Shown here piece after piece: positions 3,522 through 15,079 of a stretch of DNA of 64,000 nucleotides (positions are counted from its first letter, which is position 1; every line of letters starts with the position of its first letter). The position numbers and the translations under genes are program-made. This stretch comes from an uncultured bacterium. Its GTDB lineage: Bacteria > Cyanobacteriota > Vampirovibrionia > Gastranaerophilales > Gastranaerophilaceae. Where the stretch lies: contig CASEYP010000031.1 in NCBI GenBank assembly GCA_949292185.1, positions 1 through 64,000 of the forward strand. The letters run 5' to 3'. The notes beneath the pieces are model-generated. The model saw only the letters and a program-made list of their open reading frames with translations. It was not told the DNA's origin and did no database searches.

Positions 3522-4121
3522 ATGATTAAAGAAATATTAAATAAAACATCACGAAAAACAATAGCCATAATAATTTTGGCACTTTTATTATTATGTTCAT
3601 TTGGTACTTACAAAATTTTTGCAAATTCTACAGGAAAGGAGATAAATATGAGCGATAAAAAAGTTCTTATTGCGTATTATTCTTATTCTGGCAACACAAA
3701 ATCAGTTGCTGAAAAAATTCAAAAATTAACAGGTGGTGATATATTTGAAATTCAACCACAAAAACCTTATCCGAAAGATTATTCAACTGTAGTAAACCAA
3801 GCACAAGTTGAAAAACAAAATGATATAAAACCTGAATTAATAAATAACGGTAATGTTGAAAATTATAATATAATCTTTTTAGGAACACCAGTATGGTGGT
3901 ACACTATGGCATCACCTGTAAAAACTTTCTTAACAAAAAATAATTTTGATAATAAAGTTATTGTTCCATTCTGTACACACGGCGGCGGAGGCGCATCTTC
4001 AACCTACACTGATATGCAAAAGCTTGCACCTAACGCTAAAGTAACTGAAGGTTATACATCTTACGAAAATTCAGCAAAAGATTCTGAAATTCAAAAATGG
4101 ATAAATAACCTAAACTTATAA
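3522..4121 (+). CDS. flavodoxin, with possible membrane-anchored long form
   Basis: The flavodoxin domain begins near residue 45 with the FMN phosphate loop YYSYSGNTKSVAE. It continues through the PVWWYTMASPVKTFL and FCTHGGGGASS segments that contact the flavin, so this is a soluble-type FMN electron carrier. The long frame (199 residues) starts at 3522 and adds an N-terminal hydrophobic helix (residues 13-30), either a membrane anchor or an uncleaved signal. There is no ribosome site before 3522. An excellent one (AAAGGAG) precedes the in-frame ATG at 3648, which would give a 157-residue cytoplasmic flavodoxin. Both forms may be made. The gene heads an operon with aldo/keto reductase, polyferredoxin and Tat genes, suggesting it passes electrons in that pathway. 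Confidence 0.85.
   Translation: MIKEILNKTSRKTIAIIILALLLLCSFGTYKIFANSTGKEINMSDKKVLIAYYSYSGNTKSVAEKIQKLTGGDIFEIQPQKPYPKDYSTVVNQAQVEKQNDIKPELINNGNVENYNIIFLGTPVWWYTMASPVKTFLTKNNFDNKVIVPFCTHGGGGASSTYTDMQKLAPNAKVTEGYTSYENSAKDSEIQKWINNLNL
3635..3650 (+). promoter_or_regulatory. internal ribosome binding site and ATG in flavodoxin gene
   Basis: AAAGGAG (3635-3641) lies six bases before an in-frame ATG (3648). It is a far better initiation site than the one at 3522. It would produce a flavodoxin without the N-terminal hydrophobic helix. Confidence 0.7.
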
Positions 4122-4130
4122 GGAGAATAA

Positions 4131-5363
4131 ATGAAAAGAAGAGAATTTATAATAAATTCAGCAATCGCCCTAGGTGGAACAGCACTACTTTCAAGTTGCG
4201 GTAAAAAAGAAACTCCAAAGCAAAGTGAAAAACAAGTTGTAAAAAGAAAATTTGACAAAACTCAAATGCCTTTACTTGGATTTGGTTGTATGAGATTACC
4301 AATGCGAAATGGCAAAATTGACATGGTTGAACTTGATAAAATGGTAGAATACGCTATGTCACACGGCGCAAATTATTTTGACACTGCCTATATGTACGTT
4401 GAAGGCAAATCTGAAAATGCTATTGGTGAAGTCTTAAAAAAATACCCTAGAGAAAGCTTCTTTTTAACTGATAAAAACCCGGCATATCTTATCAATTCAC
4501 CATCTGATGTTCGAAAAATATTTGACGAACAATTAAAAAAATGCCAAGTTGAATATTTTGACAATTATATGGTTCACAATATAAATAAAAGTTCTATTAA
4601 AAACTACCGTGATAATGATATGTATGGTGAACTTTTAAAACTAAAAAAAGAAGGTAAAATAAAACATTTAGGATTTTCATTCCACGGAGATCCTGATATG
4701 CTTCGAGAAGTAATAAAAGAACATAAATGGGATTTTTGTCAATTACAAATAAACTATTTAGACTGGGAAGTAATCAATGCAAAAGAACTTTATGAGATAG
4801 CTGATGAAGCAAAAGTTCCAGTTATTGTTATGGAACCTTTAAGAGGTGGCGCATTGTGTAATCTTCCTGAAAAAGCAGCCGCTAAATTAAAAGAAAAATG
4901 TCCTCAAGATACTCAAGCCTCATTTGGTTTGAGATGGGTTACAAGTAAACCTAGAGTATTCACAATTCTTAGCGGTATGAGTAACTTGCAACAGATGAAA
5001 GAAAATATTGAAACTTTCACAAATTTCAGAGAATTTACAGCTGAAGATGAAAAAATTGCAAATGAAATTGCAAGAATTATCCAATCTCAAGGTGCAATAA
5101 ACTGTACAGCTTGCAAATATTGTATGGAAGTTTGTCCAAGAGGTATAAACATTCCGGCTATATTTGGGCTTTACAATGTTTATAAATCAAATGGCAACGG
5201 ATTTATGTTCGGTGTAAACTATAATGCATTAAAAGAAGATGAAAGAGCTGATAAATGTATTCAATGCCATTTATGCTCAAAAAATTGTCCTCAAGGACTT
5301 GATATCCCTGATCTTTTGAAAAAAGTTGATGCAACAGCAAAAGAAGTAGGCAATAAAAGATAA
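4131..5363 (+). CDS. Tat-exported lipoprotein aldo/keto reductase with two 4Fe-4S motifs
   Basis: The protein has 410 residues. The N-terminus is a twin-arginine signal (KRREFI, R3-R4) ending in a lipobox LSSC (C23), so the mature enzyme should be a lipoprotein outside the inner membrane. Residues about 41-300 form an aldo/keto reductase barrel with the catalytic tetrad apparently intact (D84, Y89, K115, H149). The C-terminus has two ferredoxin-type cysteine sets: C325/C328/C331/C335 and C376/C379/C382/C386. The clusters suggest it takes electrons from a ferredoxin chain, not only NADPH; this is inference. It has a good AAGGAG ribosome site, follows flavodoxin by 9 bases and overlaps the polyferredoxin start. 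The substrate is unknown, presumably an exported carbonyl compound. Confidence 0.88.
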   Translation: MKRREFIINSAIALGGTALLSSCGKKETPKQSEKQVVKRKFDKTQMPLLGFGCMRLPMRNGKIDMVELDKMVEYAMSHGANYFDTAYMYVEGKSENAIGEVLKKYPRESFFLTDKNPAYLINSPSDVRKIFDEQLKKCQVEYFDNYMVHNINKSSIKNYRDNDMYGELLKLKKEGKIKHLGFSFHGDPDMLREVIKEHKWDFCQLQINYLDWEVINAKELYEIADEAKVPVIVMEPLRGGALCNLPEKAAAKLKEKCPQDTQASFGLRWVTSKPRVFTILSGMSNLQQMKENIETFTNFREFTAEDEKIANEIARIIQSQGAINCTACKYCMEVCPRGINIPAIFGLYNVYKSNGNGFMFGVNYNALKEDERADKCIQCHLCSKNCPQGLDIPDLLKKVDATAKEVGNKR

Positions 5364-6664
5364 TGAAATTGAAATCGAAAAATTTATATTTATATAGAAA
5401 AATTTTGGCAGGGGTAATTTTTACCCTTGCTATTTTAGGAATATGCGGTATTTTTTACCCTATTAGAATTTTTAATATACAATTTCCCCCAATAGTTCAA
5501 AGAACAATTACAGATTTTTCAATAATCGCAATTATGCTGCTAATTTTTACACTTGGCTTAACCTTATTATTTGGAAGAATATACTGCTCTGTAATTTGTC
5601 CTATGGGCATAGCCCAAGAAATTATCGGTTTTATTAAAAATAAAATTCACAAACCAACCAACAATAAAAAAAAAGTTGGGAATTTCCCGCTAAAATATTT
5701 CATAGCCGCAATAGCGTGGGGAATATTTTTAGGCGGAAGTGCTTTTATTATAAGATATATTGAACCATATTCTCTATTTGGCTCAGCCTCAACTTTATCA
5801 ACATTTGGATTAATTGTTTTTGCACTAATTATAATCGCCGTAATTCTACAAGATAGAATATTTTGTACTAATTTTTGTCCTGTAGGAACTGTTTTAGGTC
5901 TTATTTCTAAAATTTCATTAAACAAATTATATACCGACAAAGACGAATGTGTTTCTTGCGGAATGTGTGAAAAATTGTGTCCGTCAGGATGTATAAATTC
6001 TAAAGAAAAAACTATCGACAACGAAACTTGTATAAAATGTTTAAAATGCTTAAGTGTATGTCCTAAAAATGCCATAAAATATGGGATTAAGCCAAAACAA
6101 GGTGTCAAATTCAGTCTAAAAAGACGTCAAATTATAATTTCAGGTGCAGCACTTGTTGTATTTGGTTCAATGATTAAAGCAGGCATCGAATTAAAAGATA
6201 AAATTGTAGAAAAAATTAAAGATGTAATTTTACCACCGGGCGCTGGTGATAAAGAAAGATTTGTAAATAAATGCCTAAATTGCAATTTATGTGTTACAAA
6301 TTGTCCTAATAAAATTATTCAAAAGGCTGATAAGGATTATGAGGCAGTACATTTGGATTATTCAAAAGGATTTTGCAAATTTGATTGCCACAAATGTTCA
6401 CAAGTATGTCCATCTGGAGCAATCAAAAAGATTACACTTGAAGAAAAACAAAAAACAAGAATTGCAATGGCTATGATAAAAGAAGATGTATGTACAAATT
6501 GTGGAGAATGTGCAAATGTTTGCCCTGTACATGCTATAATCAGAGAAAACGGAAAACCTCCAATACTAGATGCATCAAAATGTATAGGTTGCGGAGCTTG
6601 TAAAAATACTTGTTACTTTAAAGCAATAGAAGTTTTTGAAATAAAAGAGCAAAAAACATTATAA
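5363..6664 (+). CDS. NapH/NapG-like membrane polyferredoxin fusion
   Basis: The protein has 433 residues. The first ~180 residues are membrane-spanning with two CxxxCP motifs (C75/C79 and C168/C172), typical of the NapH/NosR/CcoG family. Two 4Fe-4S motifs follow (about 196-210 and 223-233). At 253-275 there is a second twin-arginine-like segment, KRRQII followed by a hydrophobic helix. The downstream part resembles NapG: a PPGAGDKERF lead-in, then cysteine sets at 304-314, 338-349, 377-387 and 407-417. The whole therefore looks like NapH fused to a NapG-type periplasmic ferredoxin. It would carry electrons from the cytoplasm or quinone pool across the membrane to the exported aldo/keto reductase; that role is inferred. 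It starts at an ATG overlapping the previous stop. Confidence 0.85.
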   Translation: MKLKSKNLYLYRKILAGVIFTLAILGICGIFYPIRIFNIQFPPIVQRTITDFSIIAIMLLIFTLGLTLLFGRIYCSVICPMGIAQEIIGFIKNKIHKPTNNKKKVGNFPLKYFIAAIAWGIFLGGSAFIIRYIEPYSLFGSASTLSTFGLIVFALIIIAVILQDRIFCTNFCPVGTVLGLISKISLNKLYTDKDECVSCGMCEKLCPSGCINSKEKTIDNETCIKCLKCLSVCPKNAIKYGIKPKQGVKFSLKRRQIIISGAALVVFGSMIKAGIELKDKIVEKIKDVILPPGAGDKERFVNKCLNCNLCVTNCPNKIIQKADKDYEAVHLDYSKGFCKFDCHKCSQVCPSGAIKKITLEEKQKTRIAMAMIKEDVCTNCGECANVCPVHAIIRENGKPPILDASKCIGCGACKNTCYFKAIEVFEIKEQKTL

Positions 6665-6689: not shown

Positions 6690-6923
6690 ATGTCACTTGG
6701 AATAACAGAAATATTACTAATATTAGTCGTAATTATATTACTGTTTGGCGGGAAAAGAATTCCTGAAATTGCAAGAGCATTAGGAAGAGCATCTTATGAA
6801 TACAAAAAAGCAAAAAATATAATTAAAGATGAAGCAAATGAATTAAAAGATGCAATAGAAAATACTGCACCAAAACCTGATGAATTTGATCCTGCAAAAG
6901 ACAAAGAAAGACCACAAAATTAA
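6690..6923 (+). CDS. tatA: Sec-independent translocase subunit TatA/E
   Basis: The protein has 77 residues with the TatA layout: a short N-terminus, one membrane helix (about 5-20), the conserved [14 protein letters not shown] hinge and amphipathic helix, then a charged acidic tail. TatA multimers form the passage for folded proteins delivered by TatC. An AAGGAG ribosome site precedes the ATG. It lies between two genes with twin-arginine sequences upstream and tatC downstream, so this Tat pair may serve chiefly this operon, although it could be the cell's only Tat set. Confidence 0.95.
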
Positions 6924-6928
6924 TCACT

Positions 6929-7717
6929 ATGGAAGATAATAATAAAGATGGTGAAAGCTTAATTGAACATTTGGAAGCACTAAGACAAATGTTATTAAAA
7001 TGTTTGATCTCTTTGTGCATAATTCTTCCGATATCTTTAATTGCAGCTCCAAAAGTTCTAAATGTGCTTATTGATTTAATAATCGGAAATTCAAAGGTTA
7101 CTTTTAACTTTTTTTCACCTGTAGAAGTTTTTATACTACAAATAAAAACAGCTTTTGTTCTGGATATTATAATATGCTTTCCATATATTGCAAAAAAAAT
7201 ATGGGACTTTATTTTACCTGCGTTATATGAACACGAAAAAAAATTTATAAAAACAACAGTTCTATCATCAAGCATATTATTTATACTTGGAGCAGCATTT
7301 TGTATTTGCATAATATTGCCGCTGGTCGTAAAATTCGGGATGAGTTTTTCATCAGATAATATTCATCCTGTATTTGGTATTTCCAATATAATAAACCTTA
7401 CACTTTGGATGTCTGTAGCATTTGGCATAATGTTTCAACTTCCACTAATAACTATTGCACTTATAAAATCTGGCGTGATAAGTTATGAATCTATTAGTGA
7501 TAAACGCCCTTATGTGATTGTAATAATACTTATACTGGCAGCATTATTCACACCACCTGATGTTGTGAGTCAGCTTATGCTTGGAATACCTACATATCTT
7601 CTTTTTGAAATAGGACTTCTGTTTGCAAGAAAATATCAAAATAAAAATTCTAAAAACAAAGAAGAAAATAACGAAAATTCTATCTTGACTGATAGTGACT
7701 CTCAAGGAGTAGAATAA
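6929..7717 (+). CDS. tatC: Sec-independent translocase subunit TatC
   Basis: The protein has 262 residues with about six membrane helices. It has the N-terminal HLEALRQ motif that contributes to twin-arginine signal recognition and the family block FxFFSPVEVFILQIKTAF (about residues 56-75). TatC is the receptor of the Tat pathway. It starts 5 bases after tatA and lacks a strong ribosome site, so coupling to tatA is likely. Its last codons (about 7684-7706) also contain the MerR-type operator driving larB, so coding and regulatory sequence overlap. The C-terminal tail is polar and poorly conserved, consistent with that double use. Confidence 0.95.
   Translation: MEDNNKDGESLIEHLEALRQMLLKCLISLCIILPISLIAAPKVLNVLIDLIIGNSKVTFNFFSPVEVFILQIKTAFVLDIIICFPYIAKKIWDFILPALYEHEKKFIKTTVLSSSILFILGAAFCICIILPLVVKFGMSFSSDNIHPVFGISNIINLTLWMSVAFGIMFQLPLITIALIKSGVISYESISDKRPYVIVIILILAALFTPPDVVSQLMLGIPTYLLFEIGLLFARKYQNKNSKNKEENNENSILTDSDSQGVE
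7685..7715 (+). promoter_or_regulatory. MerR-type promoter with dyad in 19-bp spacer (copy 2)
   Basis: A -35 TTGACT (7685-7690), a 19-base spacer containing the dyad GATAGT-G-ACTCTC, and a -10 TAGAAT (7710-7715). The outer arms CTTGA/TCAAG (7684-7706) match the copy at 3481-3503, with only a few base differences over 23 positions. It sits inside the end of tatC and directly precedes larB (ATG 7723). The AAGGAG at 7704-7709 could also act as larB's ribosome site on longer transcripts. Confidence 0.75.
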
Positions 7718-7722
7718 ATTTT

Positions 7723-8403
7723 ATGGATAATAAATACGTTGATTTAGATTTTGCAAAACTTGATATTGAAAGACAAAAACGCAGAGGTTGTTCTGAGGCG
7801 GTATTTTGTGAATGCAAAACAGATGAACAACTTATAAAAATTTTTCAAGAATTTAAAAACAACGGACAAAATGTACTTGGGACAAGAGCCAGCGCAAAAC
7901 AAGCTGAAATTCTAAAAAGAGAATTTGAAAATATAAATTATAATGAGAGAGCAAAAGTTTTAACACTAATCCAAAAACCAATTAAAAAAGTTGGTGAAAT
8001 TGCAATCTGTACAGGCGGAACAGGAGATATTCCGGTAGCAGAAGAAGCCGCAGAAACAGCAGAGTTTTATGGTAGTAATGTAAAAAAATACTATGATATA
8101 GGAGTTGCCGGAATACATAGACTCTTTGACAAAATTGATGATATCAGAAAAGCAAATGTAATTATTGCCGTTGCCGGAATGGAAGGTGCTTTAGGCGGAA
8201 TTTTAACAGGGCTTGTTGATGTTCCTGTTATTGCAGTGCCGACATCTATAGGTTACGGAAGCTCATTTAAAGGAATTTCAGCTCTATTAACCATGCTCAA
8301 TTCTTGCGCTGAAGGTATGACAGTTGTTAATATCGATAACGGATTTAATGCAGGTTACAGTGCAAATCAGATAAATACAATGGTAGTAAAAGGGAAAAAA
8401 TAA
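7723..8403 (+). CDS. larB: LarB, nickel-pincer cofactor synthase (carboxylase/hydrolase)
   Basis: The protein has 226 residues. LarB carboxylates the pyridinium ring of nicotinic acid adenine dinucleotide and releases AMP, giving pyridinium-3,5-biscarboxylic acid mononucleotide. This is the first step to the nickel-pincer nucleotide. The C-terminal half is an AIR-carboxylase (PurE-like) fold with CTGGTGDIPVAEEAAE (about 96-111) and AGMEGALGGILTGLVDVP (151-168), both family hallmarks. It overlaps larC by one base and begins a larB-larC-permease-larE operon. Its promoter is the MerR-type element ending 7 bases before the ATG. Confidence 0.95.
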   Translation: MDNKYVDLDFAKLDIERQKRRGCSEAVFCECKTDEQLIKIFQEFKNNGQNVLGTRASAKQAEILKREFENINYNERAKVLTLIQKPIKKVGEIAICTGGTGDIPVAEEAAETAEFYGSNVKKYYDIGVAGIHRLFDKIDDIRKANVIIAVAGMEGALGGILTGLVDVPVIAVPTSIGYGSSFKGISALLTMLNSCAEGMTVVNIDNGFNAGYSANQINTMVVKGKK

Positions 8404-9212
8404 TGGATTTATATTTTGAATGCAAATCAGGAATATCAGGTGATATGTCAGTTGGTGCATTAATTGATCTTGGAGCTTCAAAAGAAAAATTAGAAAAAGC
8501 CTTAGCTTCAATGAAACTTGATAATGAATTTAAATATGTAATTTCAAAAAAATCAATAAATGCAATTATGGCAACGGATTTTGATGTAATTTTACCGGAA
8601 GATACAAATCACAATAGCGAGCACACACATCACCACCACGAGCACGAGAATGGACATGAACACGAACATCATAAACACCATCACCCACACACTCACAGAA
8701 ATCTTGATGATGTAAATAAAATTATAGATAAAGCAGATATCACAGATAATTCTAAAAATCTTGCCAAAAAGATTTTTAGAATAGTTGCAGAAGCAGAAGC
8801 AAAAGTTCACGGAAAAGATATTAAAGAAGTACATTTTCACGAAGTTGGAGCAATAGATTCAATAGTAGATATTGTAAGTTTTGCAACAGCACTAGACGAT
8901 TTAAACCCTGAAAATATCTATTTTTCAACCCTCACAGAAGGTCAAGGATTTGTAGAATGTCAACACGGCAAACTTCCTGTTCCTGTTCCTGCAGTCTGTG
9001 AAATTGCTGCAAAATATCACTTGCCAATCAAACTTACAGAAAACAATGGGGAAATGGTTACACCAACAGGTGCTGCAATAGCTGCAAGCTTATATACAGG
9101 AGAAAACCTTCCTCAAGAATTTACAATAAATAAAATCGGATACGGTGCAGGAAAAAGGCACTATGAAAATCCAATATTAAGAGTAATGTCAATTACCAAG
9201 AAAGGGGAATAA
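8403..9212 (+). CDS. larC: LarC nickel-insertion protein, LarC1 part only
   Basis: The protein has 269 residues. LarC inserts nickel into the thiolated pincer precursor in a CTP-dependent reaction. The N-terminus (ECKSGISGDMSVGALIDLG) and the HFHEVGAIDSIVDIVSFA block (about 140-157) are clear LarC1 signatures. Residues 74-99 are extremely His-rich (about 16 His), a likely nickel-binding or storage stretch. The gene stops where Lactobacillus LarC1 stops. The next gene starts 3 bases later, so there is no LarC2 domain here, although full LarC proteins are usually about 400 residues and the CTP site has been placed in LarC2. Either LarC2 is elsewhere or this is a minimal variant. Confidence 0.9.
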   Translation: MDLYFECKSGISGDMSVGALIDLGASKEKLEKALASMKLDNEFKYVISKKSINAIMATDFDVILPEDTNHNSEHTHHHHEHENGHEHEHHKHHHPHTHRNLDDVNKIIDKADITDNSKNLAKKIFRIVAEAEAKVHGKDIKEVHFHEVGAIDSIVDIVSFATALDDLNPENIYFSTLTEGQGFVECQHGKLPVPVPAVCEIAAKYHLPIKLTENNGEMVTPTGAAIAASLYTGENLPQEFTINKIGYGAGKRHYENPILRVMSITKKGE

Positions 9213-9215
9213 TTT

Positions 9216-10127
9216 ATGCATTTAGGAAACGGTATAATTTGTCCTGTTACAGGAATTCCTATGCTTGCGATAGCAGGAGTAAGTGCATTTTATGCATTTA
9301 AAAAAGTTAGAAAAGATTTTTCGAAAGATAAAATTCTTCCAACAATAACTCTAACAGCACTTGTTTTTGCACTTCAAATGATTAATTTTGCAATCCCTAC
9401 AACAGGTTCAAGCGGTCATATTGTTGGCGCAATCTTATTATCTGCAATAATAGGACCATTTGCAGCATTTCTTTCTATGTGCTCTATTTTAATTGTTCAA
9501 TCCCTATTTTTTGCAGACGGAGGGCTTTTAGCTTTAGGTTGCAATATTTTTAATATGGGATTTTTAGCTTGTTTTGTTGCTTATCCGCTAATTTTTAAAC
9601 CTTTAGCTGATAAAAATAAATCATTTGTTGCATCAATTCTAGCATCAGTCATAGCTTTGCAACTTGGATCTATTGCTGTTGTTTTAGAAAGTGCCTTATC
9701 CGGTTCAGTTTCTTTATCTGCAATATCAAACTTTACAGGATTAATGCAAGCTATACATTTGCCTATCGGTATTGTTGAAGGTATTGTAACTGGCGGAATT
9801 GTTGTTTGTGCTAAATTTATCGATAATAAAAAATTATCATACTCTTTTGCAACAATATCACTAATCTTATCAGGCCTAATTGCACCATACGCTTCATCAA
9901 AACCTGACGGGTTAGAATGGTCATTATTAAATATCTCAAATTCTGTTGTTATGCAAACTCAAAATAACTTATACGCAATATCAGAAGCAATTCAACATAA
10001 GACTTCACTATTTGCAAATATGCCTTATACAATAGGAAATATTATAGGATTATTCACCGTTAGTGCTATTATGTTTGTAACTTGCTTTATAATTAATAAA
10101 AAAATGGCAACAGAAAATGCAAAATAA
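9216..10127 (+). CDS. CbiM/LarMN-type nickel permease (ECF family)
   Basis: The protein has 303 residues with seven or more membrane helices. The N-terminal Met-His (H2) and the PTTGSSGHIVGA motif (H68) match the metal-coordinating residues of the CbiM/NikM/LarM family. Near the C-terminal part, KPDGLEW (229-235) is the PDGLE signature of CbiN/NikN-like domains, so this is an M-N fusion. Its place between larC and larE makes nickel the probable substrate. No ECF ATPase or T component (LarQ/LarO) lies beside it. It must work alone or share components encoded elsewhere. Confidence 0.88.
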   Translation: MHLGNGIICPVTGIPMLAIAGVSAFYAFKKVRKDFSKDKILPTITLTALVFALQMINFAIPTTGSSGHIVGAILLSAIIGPFAAFLSMCSILIVQSLFFADGGLLALGCNIFNMGFLACFVAYPLIFKPLADKNKSFVASILASVIALQLGSIAVVLESALSGSVSLSAISNFTGLMQAIHLPIGIVEGIVTGGIVVCAKFIDNKKLSYSFATISLILSGLIAPYASSKPDGLEWSLLNISNSVVMQTQNNLYAISEAIQHKTSLFANMPYTIGNIIGLFTVSAIMFVTCFIINKKMATENAK

Positions 10128-10896
10128 ATTTGATGAACTTAAAAATTATATATTAACACTTGAAAAGCAGGGTATATGCCTTGCTTTTTCAGGTGGAATA
10201 GATAGTACTCTACTTTTATATCTTTGTAAAAATAAAAATACCCTAGCCGTAACATTTACGTCTGAATTTCAATCAGAAGAAGAATTAAATCTAACAAAAC
10301 AAATTTGCAAAGAATACAAAATCAGGCAAGAAGTTCATAAGTTTTACCCTCTAGAAAATGAAATTCTTATAAATAATCCTAAAGACAGATGTTATCATTG
10401 CAAAAAACTATTTTTCTCAAAATTAAAAAATATTGCCAAAGAAAACAACCTTAAATACATAATCGACGGAACAAATTATGATGATTTAAATACCTATAGA
10501 CCAGGATTAAAAGCACTTAAAGAACTTGGAATATTATCACCTTTTGCACAATTTAAAATCACAAAACAAGAAATCCGAGATTATGCAAAACTTTGTAAAA
10601 TAAAAACCTATAACAAGCCTTCAACCCCTTGCTTTGCAACAAGATTTCCTTATAATACTCATCTGACAAAAGATAAATTAAACATAGTTAAACAAGGTGA
10701 ACAGATTTTGCAATCCGAAGGTTTTAACTCTTGCAGACTTAGACTTCATGAAGATCTTGCAAGAATTGAAATTTTAAAAGATGATTTTGAAAAACTTTTA
10801 AATAAAAAAGATACCCTAATTCCAAAATTAAAACAACTTGGGATAAAATATATAACCCTTGACCTTGAAGGTTTTAGAAGCGGCAGTATGGATTAA
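10117..10896 (+). CDS. larE: LarE sulfur transferase of nickel-pincer cofactor synthesis
   Basis: The protein has 259 residues. LarE adenylates the pyridinium carboxylates and introduces the two sulfurs. The PP-loop ATP motif SGGIDS is at 25-30. Three cysteines, C92 and C95 (DRCYHCKK) and C172 (KPSTPCFATRFPY), are arranged as in LarE proteins proposed to bind a [4Fe-4S] cluster, unlike the sacrificial single-cysteine type; that subtype is inferred. The start codon lies 11 bases inside the preceding permease gene, so expression is coupled. It ends the lar operon. No larA-like racemase gene is present in the window. Confidence 0.94.
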   Translation: MQNKFDELKNYILTLEKQGICLAFSGGIDSTLLLYLCKNKNTLAVTFTSEFQSEEELNLTKQICKEYKIRQEVHKFYPLENEILINNPKDRCYHCKKLFFSKLKNIAKENNLKYIIDGTNYDDLNTYRPGLKALKELGILSPFAQFKITKQEIRDYAKLCKIKTYNKPSTPCFATRFPYNTHLTKDKLNIVKQGEQILQSEGFNSCRLRLHEDLARIEILKDDFEKLLNKKDTLIPKLKQLGIKYITLDLEGFRSGSMD

Positions 10897-11004: not shown

Positions 11005-11310
11005 ATGTTTTTTAACGTTTTAAAAGCAAAAGAACTTGTAAACCTTGATGATGCAACATTTAGAAAAGAAACACTTATGGAAAACAACAATTCCAGCCTA
11101 AACATTATTGCATTAAAAAAGGATGAAATAATTGATACACATACATCAGCAGAAGATGCTGCAGTTTATGTTTTAGACGGAGAAATTGAACTTCATTTTG
11201 ATGCTGAAAAATTTACTGTAGATAAAGGAGAAATACTGATGTTTAAAAAGGATCTACAACATAAAGTTTTAGCCCGAAAAGACAGTAAATTTCTTCTGAT
11301 AAAAATTTAA
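11005..11310 (+). CDS. small cupin-domain protein
   Basis: The protein has 101 residues, a single cupin barrel. The first cupin motif appears as IDTHTSAEDAAVYVLDGEIELHF (about 44-66), with H46 and E51-like metal-ligand positions, and the second as FTVDKGEILMFKKDLQHKVLA, ending in H91. Such stand-alone cupins bind a metal or small ligand; no specific substrate can be assigned. It has a strong AAGGAGG ribosome site that can be buried in a hairpin. It follows larE by about 110 bases in the same direction and may be a separate transcription unit. Confidence 0.8.
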   Translation: MFFNVLKAKELVNLDDATFRKETLMENNNSSLNIIALKKDEIIDTHTSAEDAAVYVLDGEIELHFDAEKFTVDKGEILMFKKDLQHKVLARKDSKFLLIKI

Positions 11311-13972: not shown

Positions 13973-15079
13973 ATGAAAGCACTTGTTTATGATAAAAATT
14001 CAAAATCAAAAATTTCACTTTGTGAAAAAGAAAATCCCAAAATTATAGACCCGAAAGATGCCATTGTAGAAGTTACCCTATCTTCAATTTGTACAAGTGA
14101 TTTACATATAATAAACGGAATGGTTCCAAGAGCAAACAACAATATAATATTAGGACATGAATTTGTTGGAAAAATTGTTGAAATCGGTTCTGATATAAAA
14201 AATTTAAAAGTCGGAGATAGGGTTAGCGCAAATTGTGAAACTTTTTGCGGAGAATGCTATTTTTGCAAAAAAGGATATATTAACAACTGCAAAAAAGGAG
14301 GTTGGGAATTAGGTTGCAGAATAGACGGCTGCCAAGCTCAATATGTAAGAGTTCCGTTTGCAGAAATGGGTTTGACAAAAATTCCTGATAATGTAAGTGA
14401 TAGGAATGCTCTATTTGTTGGAGATATTCTATCAAGCGGATATTTTGGAGCAGAAATGTGTGAAATAAAACCTGATGATACAATAGCCGTTATTGGATCA
14501 GGCCCTGTTGGAATGTGTTCTATGATTTGCGCTAAAATTCTTGGTGCAAAAACTATTATTGCAATAGATATCAATGAAAAAAGATTAAATATTGCAAAAG
14601 AAAATAACTTAGCAGATTATTACCTTAATCCAAAAACTTGTGATATCGAAAAAGAAATAAAAGCAATTACCAAAAATAAAGGAGCTGACGGAGTTATTGA
14701 AGCTGCAGGATTTTCTAATTACAAAAACACCCAAGCAAATCACAATTTTACACCGTCAAAACCATACGACTGGGAAAATGATAGTACGCTTGAATTAGCT
14801 TGGAAAATTGCACGCCCGAACGCAATCATCGGAGTTGTTGCTATGTATGAAGAAAATCAAGTTCTGCCACTACCTTTGATGTACGGGAAAAATCTAACAT
14901 TTAAAACCGGTGGAGTCGACGCTATTCATTGTGAGAAATTACTAAAACTTATTTCTGAAGGGAAAATCAATACAGATTTTTTAATTACACAAACCTTTAA
15001 ACTTGAAAATATACTTGAAGCCTATGAATTATTCAAAACTCAAAAAGATAACTGTTTAAAAATTGCAATAGAAGAATAA
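13973..15079 (+). CDS. zinc-dependent medium-chain alcohol dehydrogenase
   Basis: The protein has 368 residues. The N-terminal GroES-like domain has the catalytic-zinc ligands (C38-T-S-D, then GHEFVGKIVEIG) and the structural-zinc cluster C90/C93/C96/C104 in CETFCGECYFCKKGYINNC. The Rossmann domain carries the nucleotide motif AVIGSGPVGMCS (about 175-186), followed by an acidic residue (AIDINEKR) that suggests NAD(H) preference. The family oxidises alcohols or reduces aldehydes/ketones; sorbitol- or butanediol-type substrates are possible but cannot be chosen. A GGAGG ribosome site precedes the ATG. It is a single-gene unit, divergent from the M48-like gene. Confidence 0.88.
   Translation: MKALVYDKNSKSKISLCEKENPKIIDPKDAIVEVTLSSICTSDLHIINGMVPRANNNIILGHEFVGKIVEIGSDIKNLKVGDRVSANCETFCGECYFCKKGYINNCKKGGWELGCRIDGCQAQYVRVPFAEMGLTKIPDNVSDRNALFVGDILSSGYFGAEMCEIKPDDTIAVIGSGPVGMCSMICAKILGAKTIIAIDINEKRLNIAKENNLADYYLNPKTCDIEKEIKAITKNKGADGVIEAAGFSNYKNTQANHNFTPSKPYDWENDSTLELAWKIARPNAIIGVVAMYEENQVLPLPLMYGKNLTFKTGGVDAIHCEKLLKLISEGKINTDFLITQTFKLENILEAYELFKTQKDNCLKIAIEE

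Follow-up and report, generated by a model that had tools for sequence, protein, structure and literature searches.

An operon joining a polyferredoxin to Tat and nickel-pincer genes

The window (the whole 64,000-nucleotide stretch analysed) carries a tight same-strand run of genes for a flavodoxin, an aldo-keto reductase (AKR), a polyferredoxin (PFD, also referred to here as the fusion), TatA, TatC, LarB, LarC, a CbiM/CbiN-like transporter component and LarE (Table 1). The AKR stop codon shares one base with the PFD start, as larB does with larC. The limits of the operon rest on gene spacing, because promoter-like and terminator-like sites were no commoner in our scans than in shuffled sequence (39 promoter sites against a shuffle mean of 44.0; 5 terminator sites against 3.8). 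A repeat scan returned imperfect short pairs only, and no nitrate reductase gene lies among the scanned neighbours of PFD. A cupin gene (11005–11310) and an alcohol-dehydrogenase-like gene (13973–15079) are located near the module, with relatives of both also found near a lar-less copy of it (L142).

Structure comparison matched the AKR fold for the AKR, and residues D84, Y89, K115 and H149, which we take to be the catalytic tetrad, are invariant. The flavodoxin is apparently exported too, which would need FMN outside or another route; the window copy has no RR, and in proteobacterial loci the flavodoxin signal looks cleavable. LarB, LarC1 and LarE of the operon score over their cut-offs, and the LarC2 part is absent. 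LarC consists of LarC1 only (about 250 residues) in Gastranaerophilales, and the proteobacterial locus L103 encodes LarC1 plus LarC2.

Table 1 Features of the operon, in window coordinates
Feature	Position	Strand	Supporting match
Flavodoxin with N-terminal membrane anchor or signal, no RR	3522..4121	+	
AKR with twin-arginine lipoprotein signal (MKRREFI...LLSSCG) and two C-terminal 4Fe-4S motifs	4131..5363	+	
PFD: NapH-like membrane part, internal twin-arginine helix, four-cluster ferredoxin part	5363..6664	+	
PFD, NapH-like half (residues 1–245)	5363..6097	+	TIGR02163, 91 bits
PFD, first CxxxCP motif (residues 75–80; C75–P80)	5585..5602	+	
PFD, second CxxxCP motif (residues 168–173; C168–P173)	5864..5881	+	
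PFD, two 4Fe-4S motifs (residues 196–233), predicted cytoplasmic	5948..6061	+	
PFD, helix 253–283 of predicted model: TM5 (about 257–275), putatively Tat-dependent, plus basic C-terminal flank	6119..6211	+	
PFD, twin arginines R254–R255	6122..6127	+	
PFD, C-terminal four-cluster ferredoxin part (residues 291–433), predicted extracytoplasmic	6233..6661	+	
tatA	6690..6923	+	PF02416, 57.8 bits; TIGR01411, 55.6 bits
tatC	6929..7717	+	PF00902, 189.8 bits
larB	7723..8403	+	NF033503, 289.5 bits
larC, LarC1 part only (269 aa)	8403..9212	+	TIGR00299; positions 1–234 of 375 of PF01969
CbiM/CbiN-like cobalt/nickel transporter component	9216..10127	+	PF01891, PF13190
larE	10117..10896	+	TIGR00268, 275.9 bits

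Anatomy of the polyferredoxin

PFD is encoded by an unbroken reading frame with an ATG start (433 residues), and its hydrophobic segments peak at residues 14–32, 52–70, 112–130, 144–162 and 257–275. The initial annotation had described a fusion of NapH and NapG type in one reading frame, and a residue-by-residue check recovered all of its listed features at their positions. Two CxxCxxCxxxC motifs lie at residues 196 and 223, within a loop (196–233) that a structure search of the predicted model identified as a 2[4Fe-4S] ferredoxin fold. The sequence then reads K253, R254, R255, Q, I, I and continues through segment 257–275, and the C-terminal part has cysteine sets at 304, 338 (CxxxCxxCxxxC), 377 and 407. 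This count of motifs suggests that PFD may hold six clusters. The motif cysteines are invariant in 56 sequences except for C202 and C380, each kept in at least 90%. An AlphaFold2 model built from 56 sequences (pLDDT 88.3, pTM 0.82) places a single helix across residues 253–283.

By curated models residues 1–245 are NapH/MauN-like: the NapH model TIGR02163 gives 111 bits for the whole protein and 91 bits for this half, below its curated cut-off of 213.05. Residues 246–433 match NapF best (77 bits, under the cut-off), ahead of the NapG models PRK09476 (54.7 of 269 bits, residues 251–355) and TIGR00397 (45.2 of 178.85). The proposal that residues 291–433 resemble NapG is thus only partly apt: the label suits the start of the segment, an RR followed by a helix, and is loose for the ferredoxin part, because NapF outscores NapG there. 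Neither Foldseek nor VIA-align 2 found a solved full-length relative of PFD, their matches being single ferredoxin domains or polyferredoxins, and phmmer of the PDB likewise returned no solved full-length relative; these results carry no information on the fold.

An invariant twin arginine before a weak helix

A homologue scan of genome contigs, using patterns outside the RR segment, found 165 relatives and was narrowed to the best 80 loci; 80 of the 82 reading frames from these loci were aligned with PFD of the window. R254 and R255 are identical in 81/81 of these sequences. Across the surrounding stretch (236–290) the columns are mostly variable, and R254, R255 and G274 alone are fully kept, so the twin arginine is more than chance would give. 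The RR is also present in 14 of 14 further rows (12 of them new contigs), which include a diverged sister clade and a short form of 322 residues, and there it often appears as SRRxFI.

We compared helix hydrophobicity using a position-independent scale (not the published ΔG server). On this scale the last transmembrane segment of the window protein sums to +2.35 against −2.09 for TM1, and TM1 is the more hydrophobic of the two in 78/81 homologues. The 20 residues that follow TM5 contain three to five K/R in 80/81 homologues, where acidic residues are common too (four K/R and four D/E in the window protein).

The fusion and tatC co-occur across Gastranaerophilales

Among the named loci of Gastranaerophilales type, tatC lies at most 3 kb away in 60/62 with 2.5 kb of room, the AKR or a piece of it is present in 65/66 with 1.5 kb upstream, and larB in 51/55 with 6 kb downstream. 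Loci from Alphaproteobacteria or labelled proteobacterium have tatC in 11/11, the AKR in 7/10 with room and larB in 7/8, in another gene order. Six of the proteobacterial loci also carry, between larE and the fusion, a predicted membrane protein of 248 residues (L103:5593–6336) with no Pfam match; its motif presumably resembles nickel transporters of a family other than CbiM. The genome Zag_111 of Soo et al. 2014 carries the operon (L060).

We then counted genes in 286 genomes of the order (fusion and LarB at E ≤ 1e-40, AKR at E ≤ 1e-50), finding PFD in 100, TatC in 105 (103 over cut-off), LarB in 79 and the AKR in 105. Fusion and TatC occur together in 95 genomes, fusion only in 5, TatC only in 8 and neither in 178 (Fisher value 3e-59, which ignores shared ancestry). 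In 93 of those 95 genomes no more than 2 kb separates TatC from PFD, and the remaining two (G154, G217) carry them on separate contigs. Pairing with the AKR is comparable (both 96, fusion only 4, AKR only 9), and for LarB the counts are both 72, fusion only 28 and LarB only 7. Within the genus of the window (36 genomes), TatC and LarB over its cut-off are confined to the same five genomes, each of which has the fusion or what is left of it. The eight genomes with TatC and no PFD comprise three with divergent TatC in other families, at least one deletion remnant (G106), three with partial TatC matches (G130, G223, G228) and G225. Divergent TatC genes, unlike that of the module, lie in L140 and L141 (G038, G044) beside genes that we take to be TrmH-like and YjbQ-like, and may represent a more ancient Tat copy within the order.

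Fusion and TatC are found without LarB in 23 genomes, and nine loci (L142–L149, L154) hold the AKR, fusion, tatA and tatC together without lar genes. Two genomes (G220, G290) have PFD–tatA–tatC and no AKR match genome-wide at E ≤ 1e-50, so PFD alone can accompany Tat genes. From these lar-less and AKR-less cases, the fusion and TatAC together form the most closely linked core, with the AKR as its usual partner and lar genes added. At locus L157 (G251), tatA and tatC lie downstream of a short fusion of 322 residues that keeps the RR and has two outer cluster motifs; no AKR match was found in this genome at E ≤ 1e-50. The Tat-signal model TIGR01409 had no match in the genome of the window and gives no count of Tat clients, because even the obvious AKR signal escaped it.

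Invariant RR, a weak TM5 with basic residues downstream, adjacent tatA–tatC and co-occurrence with TatC together favour an internal Tat anchor after putative Sec-inserted helices, which at the level of sequence is the best and a well-supported reading of PFD. The topology had been called odd in the initial annotation, as one that needs both insertion routes; the same evidence supports the two routes, and the oddity falls away, the arrangement being no one-off but known in several phyla (see below).

Apparent recurrent decay of one module

Several genomes retain only parts of the module. In G003 the AKR and fusion are frameshifted beside intact tatC, larB and larC; G006 (L034) is left with remnants, its fusion having lost the RR region. 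In G101 (L156) the AKR is broken, the fusion frame is intact and a deletion reaches from within tatA to within larE. In G106 (L150) the AKR start is joined to tatA, and no fusion was found in that genome. Among the five genomes with the fusion and no TatC, the fusion is truncated or interrupted in four (for example, G006), and G143 has larB–larC–cbiMN–larE beside a broken AKR and lacks PFD. We read these losses as recurrent decay of one module. Three different deletions end inside tatA (G006, G101 and G106), the tatA start being joined to the transporter gene in G006 and to larE in G101.

A proposed Sec-to-Tat handover

We consider PFD likely to be a dual Sec/Tat-targeted polytopic polyferredoxin that provides a membrane-crossing Fe–S wire to exported partners. 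Its sequence anatomy, RR conservation, gene order and TatC co-occurrence are direct observations. Sec would insert four helices N-in, and the two-cluster ferredoxin loop after TM4 would remain cytoplasmic. TM5 appears too weakly hydrophobic, and its flank too basic, for completion by Sec; the RR segment would therefore be passed to the TatA–TatC pair encoded next door, and the folded four-cluster domain moved outside. This handover is carried over by analogy from the related MLMS-1 protein. Electrons from quinol or a cytoplasmic donor would cross some six clusters on their way to exported partners, the likeliest being the Tat-exported [4Fe-4S] AKR and the membrane-anchored flavodoxin encoded in the operon. 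We infer the topology of PFD and its electron donor, direction, partner and substrate. That the AKR is a second Tat-signal protein of the operon speaks for dual targeting.

Some findings speak against it. NapF is cytoplasmic, and the ferredoxin half of PFD matches NapF best (77 bits); genome G101 keeps an intact PFD frame where tatA–tatC are deleted; and the eight genomes noted above have TatC and no PFD. If the RR were coincidental, TM5 would be a peripheral helix and the C-terminal ferredoxin a cytoplasmic, NapF-like electron acceptor, to which both that NapF score and the weak hydrophobicity of TM5 lend support. Such a protein would not lead us to expect an RR held invariant in a variable linker, SRRxFI forms in the sister clade and short relative, or the adjacency and co-occurrence of TatA–TatC, and the Sec/Tat handover reported for the MLMS-1 relative argues against it as well; we regard coincidence as highly improbable. 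The Tat genes could instead serve the AKR only, with the last PFD helix inserted by Sec and the RR surviving as a relic of a separate NapG signal. The AKR does have a clear Tat lipoprotein signal, and adjoins PFD in nearly all Gastranaerophilales loci with room (65/66). A relic should drift, yet the RR is kept in 81/81; G220 and G290 have PFD–tatA–tatC without an AKR match; and the folded Fe–S domains of PFD suit Tat, whose classic cargo they are. We judge this explanation unlikely, and retain dual targeting of PFD as the preferred reading.

Electron donor

Dual targeting is compatible with more than one electron source. PFD may draw its electrons from reduced ferredoxin or some other cytoplasmic source, not from quinol, with the AKR perhaps not its partner, a serious possibility that we hold at somewhat below even. 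Published accounts portray Gastranaerophilales as fermenters that lack quinones and respiratory complexes (Soo et al. 2014; Di Rienzi et al. 2013). The cytoplasmic loop has the fold of a bacterial 2[4Fe-4S] ferredoxin, and the AKR is missing nearby in some PFD–tat loci. Quinol is favoured by the full retention of the NapH CxxxCP cysteines, by the description of NapGH as a quinol dehydrogenase (Tooke et al. 2017, PMC5449189), by a MenA-like prenyltransferase gene and by the note in Di Rienzi et al. 2013 that one gut genome can possibly make vitamin K. The UbiA protein of the window's genome is MenA-like and scores under the family cut-offs; UbiA was found in 55/59 genomes, with or without the fusion, and so does not separate the two groups.

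Nickel-pincer genes and the AKR

LarA (PF09861) has no match at E ≤ 0.001 in the genome of the window (G000), and weak matches to this family occur in 2/59 genomes, neither with PFD. About 15% of genomes are reported to have larB, larC and larE without larA, from which that study concludes that the cofactor is probably used in other proteins (mBio 2024, PMC11796402). This raises a more speculative picture, which we find very doubtful, of the operon as a self-contained extracytoplasmic redox unit, in a lineage regarded as non-respiring, whose own Tat exporter would bring both PFD and the AKR outside and in which the AKR would hold a larBCE-made nickel-pincer nucleotide recharged through PFD. 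The nucleotide, a nicotinate-derived hydride carrier, would be a fixed cofactor of the AKR, called for because there would be no NADPH outside. If true, the AKR would be a non-LarA user of the nickel-pincer nucleotide. Against this, the AKR keeps ordinary AKR catalytic residues, and a sister clade has the AKR, PFD and tatAC with no LarB; the exported AKR is a weak candidate because that clade is lar-less.

Eighteen AKR positions separate the lar-bearing sequences (42 from Gastranaerophilales, 5 from Alphaproteobacteria) from nine sister-clade AKRs. Three-way site patterns (33, 18 and 8) are what plain branch lengths would give, with no clear lar signal. Genomes of other families (G036, G042, G038, G044 and G058) have larE–larB neighbourhoods without the AKR or PFD.

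Comparison with known systems

Fusions of NapH and NapG have been described as polyferredoxins, with the same architecture in several phyla (Tooke et al. 2017, PMC5449189). In that work the MLMS-1 protein, studied in E. coli, depends on Sec and Tat, reporters placed after TMD5 needing the RR and Tat, and a last helix of low hydrophobicity with a basic flank is freed from Sec. By hydropathy and predicted model, PFD has the layout given there: an even number of TMDs, the RR, one TMD and a cofactor domain. Compared by its published description, the MLMS-1 protein (Q1NSB0, from a delta proteobacterium) resembles PFD as a NapH plus NapG fusion with five TMDs, an RR before a weak TMD5, a basic flank and four outer clusters. 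It differs in its seven 4Fe-4S clusters, of which three lie inside and four outside, against two plus four motifs in PFD; the count of seven is given for Q1NSB0 itself and is not put forward for the family at large. TM5 lies at residue 257 in PFD against 338 in Q1NSB0, and PFD, unlike Q1NSB0, sits in an operon with tatA–tatC and an exported AKR. We therefore file PFD with the polyferredoxins of Tooke et al. 2017, since the tested features agree, except that there are two and not three cytoplasmic motifs.

What is new for this kind of protein is its lineage (Gastranaerophilales, portrayed in the literature as non-respiring fermenters) and its operon setting, with a Tat-signal [4Fe-4S] AKR, tatAC and, in most cases, LarA-less genes for the nickel-pincer cofactor. 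We found no description in the open-licence PMC literature of a PFD–Tat–lar operon, or of Tat in Gastranaerophilales. The family, with its invariant internal RR, offers a large set of natural examples for the problem of Sec-to-Tat handover, and polyferredoxin and Tat genes share nearly the same distribution (95 of 100 fusion-bearing genomes). A membrane-crossing electron path is indicated in about a third of the sampled Gastranaerophilales (100/286), a group that the literature portrays as having no membrane electron carriers. The link between LarA-less nickel-pincer genes and a concrete redox operon makes the question of a non-LarA user testable.

Further parallels lie in three other systems. 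PFD shares with the quinol dehydrogenase NapGH the NapH-like helices, CxxxCP motifs and an RR-led ferredoxin part, and departs from it as a single polypeptide that scores under the NapH and NapG cut-offs, with no nitrate reductase gene among its scanned neighbours. The Lar system is represented in the PFD operon by LarB, LarC1, LarE and a CbiM-like transporter, whereas the window's genome has no LarA match and the LarC2 part is missing. The actinobacterial Rieske protein Sco2149/QcrA likewise uses Sec for its first helices and Tat for its last, the switch being low hydrophobicity together with positive charges; its cofactor domain is unrelated to that of PFD and its number of helices is different.
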